The notes under the pieces are model-generated. The model did not search any database and was not told the origin of the DNA. It saw only the letters and a list, made by a program, of their open reading frames with translations. A DNA stretch of 38,028 bases from Intestinibacillus massiliensis (GTDB lineage Bacteria > Bacillota > Clostridia > Oscillospirales > Butyricicoccaceae). The stretch lies in the NCBI RefSeq assembly GCF_900155735.1, contig NZ_LT707060.1, positions 84,231-122,258 of the forward strand, written 5' to 3'. Shown here piece by piece: positions 25,811-38,028 of the stretch (positions within the stretch are counted from its first letter, which is position 1; every line of letters starts with the position of its first letter). The position numbers and the translations under genes were made by a program.

Positions 25811-27580
25811 ATGAAAAAACTGATTGCGGCGCTCGCGCTGCTGCTCCTGTGCGCGACCCCTGCGGCGGCCGCGACAATCCAAAACGAGGGTTATCCCGGC
25901 GGCTTGCAGGAGCAGGCCGAAATGCTCAAGGAGCTCGGCCTGTTCCGCGGCACGGAGCAGGGCTTTGAACTCGGCCGCGCGATGACGCGCGACGAGGCGG
26001 CCGCCATGCTTGTGCGCTACCTGGGCGCGGAGGGTACGGTGCTGGCCGGGGACTGGAAGCACCCGTTTTCCGACGTCCCCGCCTGGGCGGACAAATATGT
26101 CGGCTGGCTGTACCAGTCCGGGCTGACGAAGGGCGTGTCCAAAACGCGCTACGGCGCGGCGCAACCCGTGACATGCGACCAGTTCTGCATCTTTTTAAAC
26201 CGCGCTGCAACCGGCGACGACAGCTACGCGTACAACATCGCGCAGCCGGAGGAGGTGGCGGCTTGCGACAAGGCGGGCTTCACGCGCGGCGACGCGGCGC
26301 TGCTGTCCGCCCGCACGCTCTCGGCGTACTACACGAAAAACGGCAACACTATGAGCATGGCGCAGTTCCTCATCGGCAAGGGCGTCTTTACCGCGGAGGG
26401 GCTGAAGGGCGCGGCCTGGGATGTGCTGCCGCGCGTCTACGGGCTGGCGCAGGACCCCGATGACCCCTACGGCGACTGGCGCCCGGCCTGCCGCATCGCG
26501 GACGTCGTCGTCGCGCGGAACGACGCGCTGCCCGCGCTTGACATCGCCTATGACGAGGGCAACGCCTGCAACAATGTTTACGCGGTTAGCCGGGACGACG
26601 GGGACGCGCCATCGCCGCTCTACGCCCTCGACCCGCAGACGCTCAACGCGACGGAGCTGTACCGCATCGAGCCGCTGGAAGACCGGTACGCCTATGTCTA
26701 CCCGGCCGGCGCGGTCGGGCAGACGGACTACCTGCTGACGGGCGACGGCAAGCTGCTCGAAGTGGCCGGCAAGGCCGTGCAGCGCACCTACGATGCGTAT
26801 TCCGTATACTACCCGCAAAAGGATCAGAACTATTTCCGCGGCGACGGCTGCGTGCTGGTCTGGACGGACAACGGCATCCTTTTGGCCGATGCGGCGGGCG
26901 TGCGCACGCTGGAAGCGTCGCCGGGCGAGCGGGTCTACGCCGTGCTGGGGGACCGCGTCATCACGCAGGCGGCCTCGGCCGAGGAAACCGTCCTGCGCTG
27001 CCGCGACGCTTCGACCGGCGAAACGCTGGATACCTACACGGTACCGAACGACTATGTCCTGCTGGAAGGGCAGGACGCCGGCATACGCGAGGTCTATGCG
27101 CCGCAGCTGCTGCGCCATAACAGCGTTTATCTCTGGGGCGACGCCGGGCTGTATAAGCTACAGGACGGCCGCCTGCGGCAGATTACGGCGCGCGCCACGA
27201 TTGATTACGGCTTTGACCCGTCGGACGGCAGCCATGTCATCCTGACGCACGAGCCGGGCAAGCGCGTGGAGTACCCCGCCAAAACCGGCATGGCCTATAA
27301 CCCGGCGGCGGACGAGGTTGCCCGTATCCGGGCGGACGGCACGGAAGAGCTGCTGCTCCGGGACACGCCTGCGCATGGGCTGACGCTCTATAAGCTGGCG
27401 CGCGCCGCGGGCGGCGAGGTGCGGGCGCTGAATTGGAACTGGGTGCTGGAATACGCGGTGGAAAACGGGAAAATCCGGGTGTTGCCGCCGTCGGGCACCT
27501 GGGATCCGGGCCAGTACCGCGACGCGATCGCGTCCGAGCAAAAGCGGCTGGACGCGCTGGGCGCCGGGGTGGGCGGCTAG
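25811..27580 (+). CDS. Secreted S-layer-homology protein with large uncharacterised C-terminal region
   Basis: The 589-residue protein has a signal peptide (MKKLIAALALLLLCATPAAAA) and SLH repeats over about residues 30-200 (AEMLKELGLFRGTEQGFEL followed by AMTRDEAAAMLVRYLG; PFSDVPAWADKYVGWLYQSGL), which normally anchor proteins to secondary wall polymers. The rest (about 230-575) has repeated beta-strand blocks ending in short turns, such as ADVVVARNDALPALDIAY, DYLLTGDGKLLEVAG and GCVLVWTDNGILLADAAG, which suggests a beta-propeller-like or DUF5050-type extracellular domain, though no certain family is seen. The start is the ATG at 25811 with AAAGGAGG upstream, not the earlier in-frame codon at 25715. 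Its stop overlaps the stop of the convergent gene. Confidence 0.85.
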   Translation: MKKLIAALALLLLCATPAAAATIQNEGYPGGLQEQAEMLKELGLFRGTEQGFELGRAMTRDEAAAMLVRYLGAEGTVLAGDWKHPFSDVPAWADKYVGWLYQSGLTKGVSKTRYGAAQPVTCDQFCIFLNRAATGDDSYAYNIAQPEEVAACDKAGFTRGDAALLSARTLSAYYTKNGNTMSMAQFLIGKGVFTAEGLKGAAWDVLPRVYGLAQDPDDPYGDWRPACRIADVVVARNDALPALDIAYDEGNACNNVYAVSRDDGDAPSPLYALDPQTLNATELYRIEPLEDRYAYVYPAGAVGQTDYLLTGDGKLLEVAGKAVQRTYDAYSVYYPQKDQNYFRGDGCVLVWTDNGILLADAAGVRTLEASPGERVYAVLGDRVITQAASAEETVLRCRDASTGETLDTYTVPNDYVLLEGQDAGIREVYAPQLLRHNSVYLWGDAGLYKLQDGRLRQITARATIDYGFDPSDGSHVILTHEPGKRVEYPAKTGMAYNPAADEVARIRADGTEELLLRDTPAHGLTLYKLARAAGGEVRALNWNWVLEYAVENGKIRVLPPSGTWDPGQYRDAIASEQKRLDALGAGVGG

Positions 27581-31894: not shown

Positions 31895-34258
31895 TTACCA
31901 GATGGTGATGCGGTCTTCCGGGGCGAGGTACATGCCGTCGCCGTCCGTGATGCCGAAGGCGGTATAGAACTGGTCGAGGGATTGCAGCACGCGGTTGCCG
32001 CGCAGCTTGTCCGGCGCGTGCACGTCGGCGCGTGCAGCGTATAGGGCATAATCCCGGGAGGAAGTGCTTGCCCAGACGTTGGCCATCGAAGTGAATAGCA
32101 GGCTGTAATCCGGATTGTCGAGCCGCCCGGCGGCTTCCGTGATGCAGGCCGCCGCGCCCAGGTCGGCAATGTTTTCAGACAGGGTCAGGGTACCGTTGCA
32201 GACGATGCCCGGGGCGGCCTCCTGGCCGTCGTAGAAGGCGACCGCTTGGTCGCACAGCTTCTGGAACGCTGCATAATCCTCCGGCGTCCACCAGTCGGCG
32301 GCGTTGCCCTTTTCGTCGAACTTCGCGCCGTTGTTGTCAAAGGCGTGGGTGATCTCATGCGCAATCACGTAGCCGATCGCGCCGAGGTTCTGCTCGCGCG
32401 GCGCGTCCACGTCGTACATCGGCGCCTGCAGGATGCCTGCGGGGAAGGTGATGTCGTTGCTCATCGGGTTGTACATCGCGTTGACCGTGTACGGGTACAT
32501 GCCCCACTGGGTCTTGTCGACCGGCTTGCCCTGCAGGGAAACCAGGTGCTCGCGGTTGGCCTTCGAGATGGCGACCAGGTTGTCAAAATAGCTGCCGCCG
32601 TCCGCCGCGCCCCGGATGTCTATGCCGTCGAGCAGGCTGTCCCAGCTATCGGGGTAGCCGACCTTGATGTTCATGGTATCAAGCTTGCGGATGGCCTTTG
32701 CCTTGGTGGCGTCGCCCATCCAGTCAAGCTTCTGGATGCGCTCCTTATAAATGGAGAGCACGTCCTTGACCATGCCGGTGACGTCGTCCTTGGCCTTTTG
32801 GCTGAAGTGGCGGTCGACGTACAGCTTGCCGAGGTATTCCGGCATCCAGGACTGCACGACCTGGGCGGCGACCTCCTCGTCCGTCAGCGTGCCTTCCGTA
32901 CCGAGGAACTCCTGCTGGTAGGTATTCGCCGCGTCGAGGAACTCACGGTTTAACGTGCCGCCGTAACCGGAAAGCAGGGTGAGGCGCGCGGCGGCCTTCA
33001 GTTCGTCCAGGTGCCCGCCGTTCAGCAAGGAGGCGTTGGCCTCCAGCAGGCCGGGGTCGTTGACCATGATGGCGTCGCCCGCCTTCAGGCCGCTCTGCGC
33101 CAGCACCGCGTCCAGGTCGATGGCCGGGAACAGGTCGCGAAGCTGCTGCATGGTATAAATGTTATAGATTTTGTCGATGTCGCCGTACTCCTGCCGGTCG
33201 TACTGCGCCGCGGACAGGGTGGATTCGAGCTGCCAGAACAGGCCGGCCTCGCGCGCGGCCTCCTCCTCGGAAAGCCCGCCGAGCATGTACAGCGTGCGCA
33301 CATATTTCATGAACGCATCCTTCTGCTTGCCGCCGCTGGTGTAGACATCCTTATTGAGGGAGGGCGACATCCCGCCGAAATGCAGGATATAGCGGGTGCT
33401 GTCCTTCGCGTCGGCCGACAGGCTGAAATTCACAAACATGCCGGCGCCCAGACCGTCCGCTACTTTCTGGCGCACCGCCATCAGGTCGTCGAACGAATTT
33501 GCCGCGTCAATCGCGTCGAGGTAGGGCTTGATCGGGGCGATGCCGGCCTTGTTCCGCGCATCCCAGTCCAGGATGTTATGGTACAAGGTGCTGATCTTCT
33601 GCTCCCGGGTCCCCTTGGCATAGGTTTTGCCGTCCGCGGTGATCTCCCCGATGATCGCGGCGACGTCCGCGTTGGACTTGTCCATCAGGTTGTACAGCGT
33701 GCCGCTGACCTGGCGGCCGGGCTTGATCACCGAGCTGTCAAGCTGGCTTTTGTTGACCGTCGCGTAGAAATCGTCCTTCTGGTTGCTGCCCTCCAGGGCG
33801 AACACGCGGCGGATGAACAGCTCCATCTGCCCCACGGTCACGTTTTCGTCCGGGGAAAAGGCCGTGGCGCTGGTGCCCGCGACGATGCCCGCGTCAAAGA
33901 CGCCTTGCAGCTCGGCCTGCGCCCATGCGGGGATGTCGGTAAAGCTGGATGCGGGGTAAGCCTTGCGGGCGTTGTCGCCCGTCGGCTTTGGCAGTTCGCC
34001 GAAGGCGCGCTGCAGCATGATAAGCGCCTCCGCGCGCGTCACGGGGTCGTTTTCCCGCAAGTTGCCGTCCGGGTCGCCGTGCAGGATATCGGACTGCTTG
34101 ACGCCGGGGTTATAGTCGTCCGCCGCCGTGAGCAGCATGGCGCACACCTGCCCGCGCGTCGCCGCGGGGTCGGCCGGTCCGGCCGCAAGGGCAGCGGGCA
34201 GGGCGGTACTGAGCATGGCTGCGGAAAGCAGCCCGGCCAGGAATCGTTTTGCGTTCAT
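31895..34258 (-). CDS. Secreted M13-family (neprilysin/PepO-like) metallopeptidase with N-terminal SLH domains
   Basis: The 787-residue protein starts with a signal peptide (MNAKRFLAGLLSAAMLSTALPAALA), then SLH-like repeats over about residues 30-165 (TRGQVCAMLLTAADDYNPG, VTRAEALIMLQRAFG, SFTDIPAWAQAELQGVFDAGIV), then an M13 peptidase. The zinc site is complete: H634-E-x-x-H638 (VIAHEITHAFDNNGAKFD) and E695-N-I-A-D699 (LSENIADLGA). The substrate-binding NAMYNP (equivalent to NAYY) and the C-terminal hydrophobic domain are also present. M13 enzymes cut oligopeptides outside the cytoplasm. The fused SLH repeats would hold it at the cell surface. The ATG at 34258 with AAAGGAG is the start; an upstream frame begins in the promoter. 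Confidence 0.92.
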   Translation of the reverse strand: MNAKRFLAGLLSAAMLSTALPAALAAGPADPAATRGQVCAMLLTAADDYNPGVKQSDILHGDPDGNLRENDPVTRAEALIMLQRAFGELPKPTGDNARKAYPASSFTDIPAWAQAELQGVFDAGIVAGTSATAFSPDENVTVGQMELFIRRVFALEGSNQKDDFYATVNKSQLDSSVIKPGRQVSGTLYNLMDKSNADVAAIIGEITADGKTYAKGTREQKISTLYHNILDWDARNKAGIAPIKPYLDAIDAANSFDDLMAVRQKVADGLGAGMFVNFSLSADAKDSTRYILHFGGMSPSLNKDVYTSGGKQKDAFMKYVRTLYMLGGLSEEEAAREAGLFWQLESTLSAAQYDRQEYGDIDKIYNIYTMQQLRDLFPAIDLDAVLAQSGLKAGDAIMVNDPGLLEANASLLNGGHLDELKAAARLTLLSGYGGTLNREFLDAANTYQQEFLGTEGTLTDEEVAAQVVQSWMPEYLGKLYVDRHFSQKAKDDVTGMVKDVLSIYKERIQKLDWMGDATKAKAIRKLDTMNIKVGYPDSWDSLLDGIDIRGAADGGSYFDNLVAISKANREHLVSLQGKPVDKTQWGMYPYTVNAMYNPMSNDITFPAGILQAPMYDVDAPREQNLGAIGYVIAHEITHAFDNNGAKFDEKGNAADWWTPEDYAAFQKLCDQAVAFYDGQEAAPGIVCNGTLTLSENIADLGAAACITEAAGRLDNPDYSLLFTSMANVWASTSSRDYALYAARADVHAPDKLRGNRVLQSLDQFYTAFGITDGDGMYLAPEDRITIW

Positions 34259-34303
34259 CAGGATCTCCTTTCGCTCCTCTGATTGTGTCATAAGAATAAT
34301 ACA

Positions 34304-35706: not shown

Positions 35707-35737
35707 TTGTGCAGAAAGCACAAAAACATGCTATAAT
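35707..35737 (+). promoter_or_regulatory. Predicted promoter of the methionine-rich SLH protein gene
   Basis: A perfect TATAAT (35732-35737) with an extended TGC upstream; the best -35 is TTGTGC (35707-35712) at a long 19-base spacing. The extended -10 may compensate. Confidence 0.7.
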
Positions 35738-35783
35738 AATACCCGATATCCCGGTTTGCTTAATTTTAAGGAGGACAAAAGAA

Positions 35784-37139
35784 ATGAAGAACTCGCTGAA
35801 GGCGATGACCGCGGGCCTGGTCGTTGCGGCTGCGCTGACGGTATCCGCCGCAGCGGCCGATTTCGACCACTGCGCGGACGCGCTCAACCAGATGGGCCTG
35901 TTCCAGGGCGGCACGAGCGGCTACGAGCTTGACCGCGCGCCGACCCGCGCGGAAGCGGCGACCATGCTGGTACGCATGCTGGGCAAGGAGGCGGACGCCA
36001 AGGCGCTCACCTACACCGCGCCCTTTACCGACCTGGAGGATTGGGAGAAGCCCTACGTCCAGTACCTCTATGATGCAAAGCTGACCAACGGCGCGACGGC
36101 TACGACCTTCGACCCGGAGAGCAAGTGCGATGCACAGATGTATTCCACCTTCCTGCTGCGCGCGCTGGGCTATAGCGATGCGGCGGAGGGCGACTTTACC
36201 TATGACAAGGCGGTCGATAAGGCCACCGAGCTTGGCGTAGTCGATATGGTAAACTGCGACACGAAGAACTTCCTGCGCGACAATGTGGTGGCGATGAGCT
36301 ACACCGCGCTTTCTGTAGAGCCCAAGGACAAGTCTGCCGATACCCTGCTGGCCAAGCTGGTGGCGGACGGCGCGGTCGACAGCGCCAAGGCGCAGCCGAC
36401 GCTCGACCTGTTCAAGAACTTCAAGGAATACGAGTCTGCCGCGACCAAGCAGAACGACGTGTCCAAGATGGCGATGGATATGGATATGGCGATGTCCGCA
36501 AAGCTGAACGGCAAGGACTTTATGACCATGAAGAGCAAGATGGCGATCAAGGCCAATATGGACCTTGAGGACCTCAACAAGTCCAAGATGGCGATGGACG
36601 GCACCATGGACATCGAAATGGACAAGTCCCTGGTAGAGAACGAGGCGGACGCCAAGCTGTCCCAGGATCTCAAGTACTACTACACCGACGGCAATATGTA
36701 TATGCAGCTCGGCGAGGATAAGGTCAAGATGCCGATGGACTTCTCCCAGGCGCAGGCGATGATCAACAGCACCAAGGATGTATCCTCTGAGCCGGTCAGC
36801 GCGATCAAGGCGCTGACGAAGTCCGGCGATACCTACACGGTAGAGTATGCCCCGGCTGTGATGAACAGCATGATGGACACGATGCTCAAGGGCATGAACA
36901 TGGACGCTGTGATGCAGGGCGTTACGTTCAAGATGGATACGTTCAAGATGAACGCGACCGTCAAGGACGGCATGGTGTCCGCGATGGACATGGCCATGGG
37001 CATGACGGCTGGCGCAGAGGGCCAGACCATGAATATGGACATTACCGTAAAGGCAAATGTAACCGCGACCGGCGACAGCGTCAAGGTTGAGCTGCCGGCC
37101 GACCTGGATACCTACACGGTACCGGCTGCCGCGGAGTAA
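35784..37139 (+). CDS. Secreted SLH protein with methionine-rich beta-strand domain
   Basis: The 451-residue protein has a signal peptide (MKNSLKAMTAGLVVAAALTVSAAAA), SLH repeats at about residues 28-185 (ALNQMGLFQGGTSGYELDR and APTRAEAATMLVRMLGKEA; PFTDLEDWEKPYVQYLYDAKL), and a C-terminal region (about 225-440) with some 34 methionines in ~210 residues. The Met residues alternate with polar ones (MAMDMDMAMSAK, KMAMDGTMDIEMDK, MDMAMGMTAG), the pattern of amphipathic beta strands in LolA/LppX- or DUF6612-like lipoprotein folds. Its SLH order resembles that of the protein encoded at 25811. AAGGAGG precedes the ATG at 35784; an earlier in-frame ATG lies in the promoter. The AT-rich promoter suggests strong expression. 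Confidence 0.87.
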   Translation: MKNSLKAMTAGLVVAAALTVSAAAADFDHCADALNQMGLFQGGTSGYELDRAPTRAEAATMLVRMLGKEADAKALTYTAPFTDLEDWEKPYVQYLYDAKLTNGATATTFDPESKCDAQMYSTFLLRALGYSDAAEGDFTYDKAVDKATELGVVDMVNCDTKNFLRDNVVAMSYTALSVEPKDKSADTLLAKLVADGAVDSAKAQPTLDLFKNFKEYESAATKQNDVSKMAMDMDMAMSAKLNGKDFMTMKSKMAIKANMDLEDLNKSKMAMDGTMDIEMDKSLVENEADAKLSQDLKYYYTDGNMYMQLGEDKVKMPMDFSQAQAMINSTKDVSSEPVSAIKALTKSGDTYTVEYAPAVMNSMMDTMLKGMNMDAVMQGVTFKMDTFKMNATVKDGMVSAMDMAMGMTAGAEGQTMNMDITVKANVTATGDSVKVELPADLDTYTVPAAAE

Positions 37140-37173
37140 GAACCGAACGTCTGTCACAAAACGGGATATAAGG

Positions 37174-37204
37174 GTGCCGGGAATTTTTCCCGGCACTTTT
37201 TATT
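37174..37204 (+). terminator. Rho-independent terminator after the methionine-rich SLH gene
   Basis: GTGCCGGGAA pairs with TTCCCGGCAC (37174-37196) over a short T loop, followed by TTTTTATTTT. Confidence 0.92.
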
Positions 37205-37295: not shown

Positions 37296-38028
37296 ATGAA
37301 ATTTAGAGGTACTATGGCCGCTATTTTGAGCGCCACCATGCTTTGCACCGCCGTACTCGCGGCGAGCGCCAACACCCTGACGCCCGCGGCGCCGCAGGAC
37401 GCCCCGGCGGCGACGGAGCAGCAGGCCCAGCTTTCCGTGCTGGGCGGCAAGATGAAAGTTGTAGAAGTAAACCTGAAGTCCGGCGGGTACCCGTCCATCG
37501 GCGTTGTCCCGGCGGACGACGCAGACGCGGGACGCGAGTCCGGCGGCCTGGCGCTCCAGCTCAACCTGGGCGGGGATACGGTCTGCATCGATACCAAGAC
37601 CGGCGCCGCGGCGAACGCCGGGGATATCAAGGTCGGCGACGAGATCTATGCGTATTACAGCGCGGCCATGACCCGCAGCCTCCCGCCGCAGTCCTACTGC
37701 TACGCACTGGTCGTCAACCTGGACGAGAAAGCCTCGCCCGCGCATTACCTGACGGCAGAGGAAGTCACAAAGAACGACGACGGCAGCGTGACCGTGCTGG
37801 CGGAAAACGGCACGATCCTCGTGACCATCGGCAAGGACACCCCGGTCAGCCCCTACCTGACGAAGAATATCGTCAAAAACACCGACATTGAGGTTGGTAC
37901 GCGCTTCTTTGCGTGGTATGACCAGGTCGCGCTGTCCATGCCCGGACAGGCGCACGCCACGCAGGCCGTCCTGCTGCCGGACGCGGCGGACGCTACGGAC
38001 GCTGCGGCGGCCGCTGAAACCCGCGACG
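37296..38028 (+). CDS. Secreted protein of unknown function, 3' end outside window
   Basis: An open frame starts at ATG 37296, seven bases after AGGAGG, and runs without a stop to the window edge (244 codons seen). The product begins with a signal peptide (MKFRGTMAAILSATMLCTAVLAAS), a low-complexity Ala/Pro/Gln linker (TPAAPQDAPAATEQQAQ), then a beta-rich domain (LGGKMKVVEVNLKSGGYPSI, GDTVCIDTKTGAAANAGDIK, VGDEIYAYYSAAMTRSLPPQ, VTVLAENGTILVTIGKDTPV) and a second Ala/Asp-rich linker at the end. Clostridial proteins with this layout often end in a copper-amine-oxidase N-terminal-like or SLH domain beyond the linker, but that part is outside the window. No firm family is recognised. Confidence 0.82.
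   Translation, partial: MKFRGTMAAILSATMLCTAVLAASANTLTPAAPQDAPAATEQQAQLSVLGGKMKVVEVNLKSGGYPSIGVVPADDADAGRESGGLALQLNLGGDTVCIDTKTGAAANAGDIKVGDEIYAYYSAAMTRSLPPQSYCYALVVNLDEKASPAHYLTAEEVTKNDDGSVTVLAENGTILVTIGKDTPVSPYLTKNIVKNTDIEVGTRFFAWYDQVALSMPGQAHATQAVLLPDAADATDAAAAAETRD

Follow-up and report, generated by a model that had tools for sequence, protein, structure and literature searches.

A methionine-rich SLH protein of Intestinibacillus massiliensis with a predicted LolA/LppX-type half-barrel and a putative hydrophobic-ligand pocket

The protein encoded at positions 35784–37139 (+) of the Intestinibacillus massiliensis DNA analyzed here (38,028 nucleotides, referred to as the window) is best read as a wall-anchored, LppX/LolA-type binder of a hydrophobic ligand with a lining of methionine, a model-based interpretation to which we give a probability of roughly 60%. 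In the proposed mechanism, the protein would be secreted and held to the cell wall by its S-layer homology (SLH) half, probably through a pyruvylated wall polysaccharide, and would display a LolA/LppX-type half-barrel related to the Pfam family DUF6612. Methionine would mainly line the concave face of this half-barrel and, in part, its overlying helices, and these long, flexible, and polarizable side chains would create a mouldable, non-specific hydrophobic pocket. Such a pocket could take up an acyl chain or another hydrophobic ligand at the envelope and then hold it or hand it on, in parallel with the way in which LprG, LolA, and MucB/RseB treat their respective lipids. If this is true, the uncharacterized family DUF6612 gains a fold and a testable role, and the protein would offer a natural example of a lipid-type pocket made largely of methionine, relevant to the extramembrane handling of hydrophobic molecules by gut bacteria of this group and to what binding surfaces gain from methionine that leucine would not provide.

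The open reading frame spans exactly 451 amino acids and comprises a signal peptide, a triple SLH module, and a methionine-rich, LolA/LppX-like domain related to DUF6612. The putative Sec signal peptide (residues 1–25, 35784–35858) was identified by eye from the translation, in which the residues AAA precede residue 26 and no lipobox was seen. It is followed by the SLH half (residues 26–190, 35859–36353), for which a three-SLH fold is predicted. Pfam recognizes SLH (PF00395) at residues 80–114, with an E-value of 1.3e-4 and 22.3 bits against a cut-off of 20.8. In the structural model, residues 25–197 superpose on the SpaA SLH domain (6cwm) with Z 15.7, an rmsd of 3.0, and 154 aligned residues in VIA-align; the N-terminal triple-SLH fold thus resembles the SpaA/Sap SLH domains in general (Z 14–16), with the difference that the SLH half of the window protein is recognized by Pfam over one stretch only. 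The genome also encodes a csaB-type pyruvyl transferase (TIGR03609, 224.5 bits against a cut-off of 213.1), a profile that also scores above threshold in 4 of the 14 control genomes, and its presence is consistent with SLH anchoring. The protein is probably anchored on the cell wall through its SLH half. Two further large proteins in the window match this half: an M13-family peptidase with SLH (31898–34261, −) and an SLH protein (25811–27580, +).

The C-terminal domain (residues 200–439, 36381–37100) was delimited with Pfam and the AlphaFold2 model. Pfam aligns DUF6612 (PF20316) to residues 217–439 with an E-value of 2.7e-4 and 21.1 bits, below the cut-off of 23.7, and the C-terminal half searched alone reaches 22.2 bits, still under that value. 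A bacterial-Ig match (Big_8, residues 415–446, 19.4 bits, cut-off 22.9) also falls below threshold and overlaps the last strand. The relationship to DUF6612 is established through orthologues, since PF20316 exceeds its cut-off in 23 of the 87 genomes of the window's family, 18 times at the gene matching this protein (for instance, in G001, G007, G048, and G085) and 5 times elsewhere. At an E-value of 0.01, 21 of the 35 members of alignment A2 match PF20316; the SLH relative L102 gave no such match at E up to 1. At the same threshold, NCBIfam returned nothing for the query, a profile search of PDB sequences found no relative, and Pfam reported neither the LppX_LprAFG nor a LolA family, in a search whose filters drop weak matches. 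The LolA family (PF03548) was likewise without a match in the organism's own genome at an E-value of 0.001, with the same filters in place. As a control for the fold, PF03548 matched 4 of 199 genomes, 1 of them above the cut-off, which is too few for use.

The structure prediction that the sequence-only reading had proposed as a check was performed with AlphaFold2 on alignment A2 (35 sequences: the window protein and 34 loci from the profile scan), and it predicts a triple SLH module followed by an LppX/LolA-type half-barrel, with a mean pLDDT of 88.3 and a pTM of 0.85; the prediction from the single sequence was useless (pLDDT 36). The C-terminal domain is modeled as a long helix, 11 strands, and two more long helices. 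In VIA-align, residues 209–437 superpose on the mycobacterial lipoprotein LppX (2byo) with Z 11.4, an rmsd of 3.3, and 161 aligned residues, followed by LprF (Z 10.5) and LprG (Z 10.2; 10.1 for the PIM-bound and 9.7 for the triacylglyceride-bound structure). LolA scores 8.9–9.6 and RseB about 9.0–9.8, and the LolA and RseB/MucB structures together range over 8.7–9.8. Unrelated beta barrels score comparably in this comparison, namely the autotransporter NalP (Z 10.1) and the porin OmpG (Z 9.9). Foldseek alone placed SLH entries on top, and its LolA-type entries were weak and poorly superposed (TM 0.15–0.19 by query and 0.21–0.36 by target, rmsd 9–15). Because unrelated barrels score alike and the Foldseek matches are weak, the fold call relies jointly on the topology, the extent of the alignment, and the grouping of LolA-fold structures among the matches. 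On this predicted model, the half-barrel sheet and helices typical of the LolA/LppX superfamily are present, and the C-terminal half is predicted to be a clam-shaped half-barrel of LolA/LppX type.

These comparisons also reveal how the protein differs from the known systems. It shares the predicted fold with LppX, LprG, and LprF (Z 10–11 over about 160 residues), but it has no sequence match in the PDB at E up to 1, is SLH-anchored rather than a lipoprotein, and carries methionine-lined strands. LolA and RseB/MucB, which share the half-barrel fold family, are periplasmic proteins of diderm bacteria, and no partner gene was identified for the window protein. With DUF6612 it has in common the extent of the domain, the methionine bias, and the M-x-M spacing; it differs in that the window copy scores under the cut-off and has SLH in front of the domain, a place taken in some relatives by a lipoprotein-like N terminus (L106, L108) or by Cu_amine_oxidN1 (L112).

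The sequence-only reading had counted about 34 methionines in about 210 residues, and this number is exact: the densest 210-residue stretch begins at residue 229 and holds 34 methionines (residues 229–438, 36468–37097). The two strings it quoted were located at residues 229–237 (MAMDMDMAM) and 401–407 (MDMAMGM). Across the 24 other open reading frames of the window taken as genes, methionine averages 3.2%, and the highest count per 210 residues among them is 16, in a sodium:solute symporter; the binomial P for the density (1e-14 to 1e-15) is merely indicative. Within residues 226–421, methionine pairs are in excess at i+2 (13 against 5.7 in shuffles) and i+4 (13 against 5.6), with P of about 0.0007 each, and are depleted at i+1, i+3, i+5, and i+7. 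Alternating strands with methionine on one side had been suggested from this spacing, and the model bears this out, as 23 of the 24 strand methionines lie on the more hydrophobic parity, with 10 further methionines outside the strands. The pattern is visible in the first three long strands (residues 228–241, 244–258, and 268–279; 36465–36620), where methionine keeps to one parity. The last three (residues 380–394, 397–411, and 414–429; 36921–37070) include the MDMAMGM string, and the parity of strand 380–394 is unclear. In the two-helix region presumed to form a lid (residues 320–331 and 357–370, 36741–36893), methionine is commonest among homologues at positions 360 and 363 and, immediately beyond the region, at 371 and 373, and its helical one-sidedness is modest (resultant 0.44). 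We infer that the methionine-bearing face of the sheet is the concave one, and the fold, taken with the strand alternation, suggests an open cavity in the C-terminal half.

Homologues provide a broader view of this one-sidedness. We collected 45 non-redundant homologous open reading frames and excluded 5 low-methionine or distant paralogues (L065:1400-2671, L071, L072, L073, and L074, with 3–12 methionines in the C-terminal half), an exclusion that raises the methionine share in the resulting set of 40; this set includes near-identical rows (e.g., L015 and L016), and L068 is cut by the contig end. The C-terminal halves of these 40 contain 18–35 methionines, with L100 from the profile scan adding a further case (17 in 272 residues), and the query sits at the methionine-rich end. 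Over the 11 strands, methionine accounts for 693 of the 2386 residues with the more hydrophobic parity and for 42 of the 2512 with the opposite one, and its share of Leu/Ile/Val/Met/Phe is 48% against 11.5%, a contrast that arises partly by construction since parity was assigned by hydrophobicity. Among 17 representatives sharing less than 50% identity, the shares over 9 of the 11 strands were 287/540 and 9/89, with residues 341–347 and 380–394 left out because their parity is not clear; the Fisher P values for these comparisons ignore relatedness. The N-terminal halves of these proteins have about 4–19% methionine among their Leu/Ile/Val/Met/Phe residues. The opposite face of the same strands, at 11.5%, therefore acts as an internal control with ordinary methionine use.

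Between the query and 39 homologues (mean identity 32%), an average of 14.2 query methionines are shared, 19.0 are absent, and 12.5 occur elsewhere, so individual methionine sites are replaced while the overall number remains high. Across the 246 well-filled columns, methionine reaches at least 25% in 49, at least 50% in 22, at least 75% in 5, and at least 90% in none, and in the 40 homologues it exchanges with Leu, Ile, Val, and Ala site by site. As evidence against selection for methionine, the sequence-only reading had named homologues that keep the fold with Leu, Ile, or Val in its place. Such replacement was found in part, in the site-wise swaps and the low-methionine paralogues, whereas the orthologues keep both the high total and the face specificity. 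From the sequences, methionine thus looks selected as a pocket lining rather than as a set of fixed sites.

The same columns bear on the earlier suggestion that the methionine clusters bind a soft metal, Cu(I) or Ag(I), which we now consider very unlikely. The M-x-M spacing and the many thioethers would suit such a site, and in one sampled relative (L112), DUF6612 is coupled to a module that Pfam names copper amine oxidase N-terminal and that may relate to copper. However, the conserved methionine ligands, accompanied by His or Cys, of Met-rich Cu(I)-binding proteins are not seen here: with no column at 90% methionine and just 5 at 75%, the residue swaps with Leu, Val, Ile, and Ala, histidine is absent from the C-terminal half of this protein and from that of 31 of the 40 homologues, and the conserved genomic neighbor is a lactate/malate dehydrogenase. 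With no fixed methionine and little histidine, a methionine-lined hydrophobic pocket fits better than a copper site.

A sacrificial oxidant sink on the cell surface, also proposed earlier, is weakened and appears scarcely likely. A surface protein with many methionines, whose total rather than positions is conserved, would be in keeping with this role, and the methionine sulfoxide reductase MsrA occurs in 3 of 15 sampled carriers, including a member of the same genus (G001). Yet neither MsrA (PF01625) nor MsrB (PF01641) was found in the organism's own genome, which is 95.86% complete, non-carriers have MsrA about as often (3 of 16), and methionine avoids the outward strand parity. With neither enzyme found, a hydrophobic pocket fits better than a repairable sink. 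Oxygen-linked respiration offers no support either: COX1 was detected in 8 of 46 genomes, and DUF6612 has a similar median methionine content in genomes with a haem-copper oxidase (9.2%, 8 genomes) and in those without (8.2%, 21 genomes), so that no link to aerobic life was seen. Over all sampled family genomes, MsrA was found in only 6 of 31.

The hydrophobic ligand pocket, which the sequence-only reading had listed among several roles, agrees with the LppX/LolA fold predicted here. According to PMC6363788, LolA-fold proteins have in common that their curved sheet binds hydrophobic ligands; VioE is presented there as a case in which a LolA-type fold serves an enzyme. In simulations, an Rv1410 homologue passes triacylglyceride to LprG (PMC10576003), and MucB detects lipid through its cavity (PMC7400510). 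By analogy, the C-terminal half may bind a lipid-like ligand, and it is possibly a lipid-binding domain. A different use of the same residues is structural plasticity without a ligand, in which core methionines would keep the sheet mobile for dimerizing or for fitting wall partners. Core methionine mobilizes a spidroin N-terminal domain for binding, and replacing it by Leu yields a more stable domain that dimerizes poorly (PMC6763431); turnover of methionine sites at a high total is consistent with such a function. Against it stands the ligand pocket shared by members of the fold, and we regard plasticity alone as less likely, though a real alternative. Our data would look no different for a methionine-rich core that is packed and holds no ligand.

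The methionine-lined pocket may also be set against compositional drift, according to which a surface domain under low constraint would have accumulated methionine without function. Drift could account for the SLH paralogues that have a related C-terminal half and 1–5% methionine, and for the low methionine of some DUF6612 domains. It is difficult to reconcile with the 6–14% methionine held in SLH orthologues across loci of 34 to 67% G+C, with the 8–11% found in six SLH-less Lachnospiraceae relatives, or with the placement of methionine on a single face in the SLH homologues, and we give drift little chance of being the explanation. Over 28 orthologous loci, G+C does not explain methionine content (rho 0.27, p 0.17).

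A lactate/malate dehydrogenase gene (ldh, with Ldh_1_N and Ldh_1_C matches in its product) is found close to the methionine-rich SLH gene in the window and in 20 of 28 other loci (L075–L102). An SLH paralogue with 1–5% methionine is divergent from ldh in 13 of these loci, 12 of which list the methionine-rich gene on the opposite side of ldh; at the thirteenth, L093, the profile scan places the methionine-rich gene there too, the open reading frame picked at that position being an antisense frame. The methionine-rich gene is itself divergent from ldh in the window, in L079, and in five Butyricicoccus loci. Alignment A3 holds 14 such low-methionine paralogues, and their C-terminal halves are related to those of the methionine-rich proteins (hhalign probability 98.5, E 3.7e-15). 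The low-methionine forms do not represent a pure Met-to-Leu swap, because they are divergent and less hydrophobic overall.

Regarding distribution, the C-terminal half matched 41 of the 87 family genomes at an E-value of 0.001. A scan of genome contigs with the single protein returned no relative, and searching named genomes with a profile yielded 34 relatives, from Agathobaculum, Butyricicoccus, Intestinibacillus, and uncultured Oscillospiraceae, together with the six relatives without SLH (Lachnospiraceae, Anaerostipes, and Hungatella); in alignment A2, the rows L103, L104, L105, and L107 start at an internal methionine. Two of the SLH-less relatives, L106 and L108, combine a lipoprotein-like N terminus with a 70-bit match to DUF6612. 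In the phylum, PF20316 matched 62 of 299 sampled genomes, and in L112 it follows a copper amine oxidase N-terminal domain (PF07833, 103.7 bits) and has 9.3% methionine. The SLH, lipoprotein-like, and PF07833 fusions indicate that the domain is borne on at least three N-terminal arrangements. By eye, a similar N-terminal stretch precedes DUF6612 in L110, L111, L113, L117, L119, and L128. PF20316 also exceeded its cut-off in Methanocaldococcus jannaschii in one scan and in no control genome in two others.

The methionine bias in DUF6612 is common, not universal. The 29 best-scoring new phylum loci, taken from the 62 matching genomes rather than drawn at random, have a median of 8.5% methionine, counted within the matched stretch only and in some cases over a partial one; 22 of the 29 have at least 6%, and 7 fall lower, including 4 below 5%. 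Their methionine pairs again favor i+2 (101) and i+4 (87) over i+1 (9) and i+3 (26). One of the best 30 loci, L115, has no methionine in 174 residues, and values across 25 loci from the class sample and from further copies in the family run from 0 to 14% of the matched stretch. One may speculate that DUF6612 comprises widespread envelope carriers of the phylum, with various N-terminal modules and a LolA-type pocket whose promiscuous methionine “bristles” would polarize the pocket upon oxidation and make its loading redox-responsive, a generalization that we deem quite unlikely. In open-licence literature, with subscription papers lying outside the search, we found no paper naming DUF6612 and none combining methionine-rich with S-layer homology; titles and abstract openings yielded none on an SLH protein with a LolA-like lipid-binding domain, and titles yielded no methionine-lined pocket in a LolA-fold protein.

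The sequence-only reading had taken a strong promoter and terminator to suggest an abundant product. An extended −10 element (TGcTATAAT, 35729–35737, +) and a ribosome-binding site (AAGGAGG, 35768–35774, +) were read directly. The best −35 for this element is TTGTGC, with a spacer of 19 bases, and a consensus scan reported no promoter on the + strand. The scan detected an intrinsic-terminator-like hairpin of 14 pairs with a T tail (37170–37200, +), in a window where 3 such sites occur against 2.2 expected from shuffles. An abundant product is plausible.

Two minor observations concern the surroundings of the gene. A perfect inverted repeat, TTGTGC-AGAAA-GCACAA (35707–35723), overlaps the promoter region between ldh and the methionine-rich gene and is a possible operator candidate. 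Its form, TTGTGC-N5-GCACAA, resembles a Rex site; this reading was dropped, as TTGT-N8..11-ACAA occurs in just 3 of 20 ldh-side intergenic stretches with the window counted (2 of the 19 others). Downstream, 37296–38028 encodes a secreted-looking protein of at least 244 amino acids that runs past the window end, resembles DUF3221 weakly (E 0.0016, below the cut-off), and has relatives at 4 other loci.
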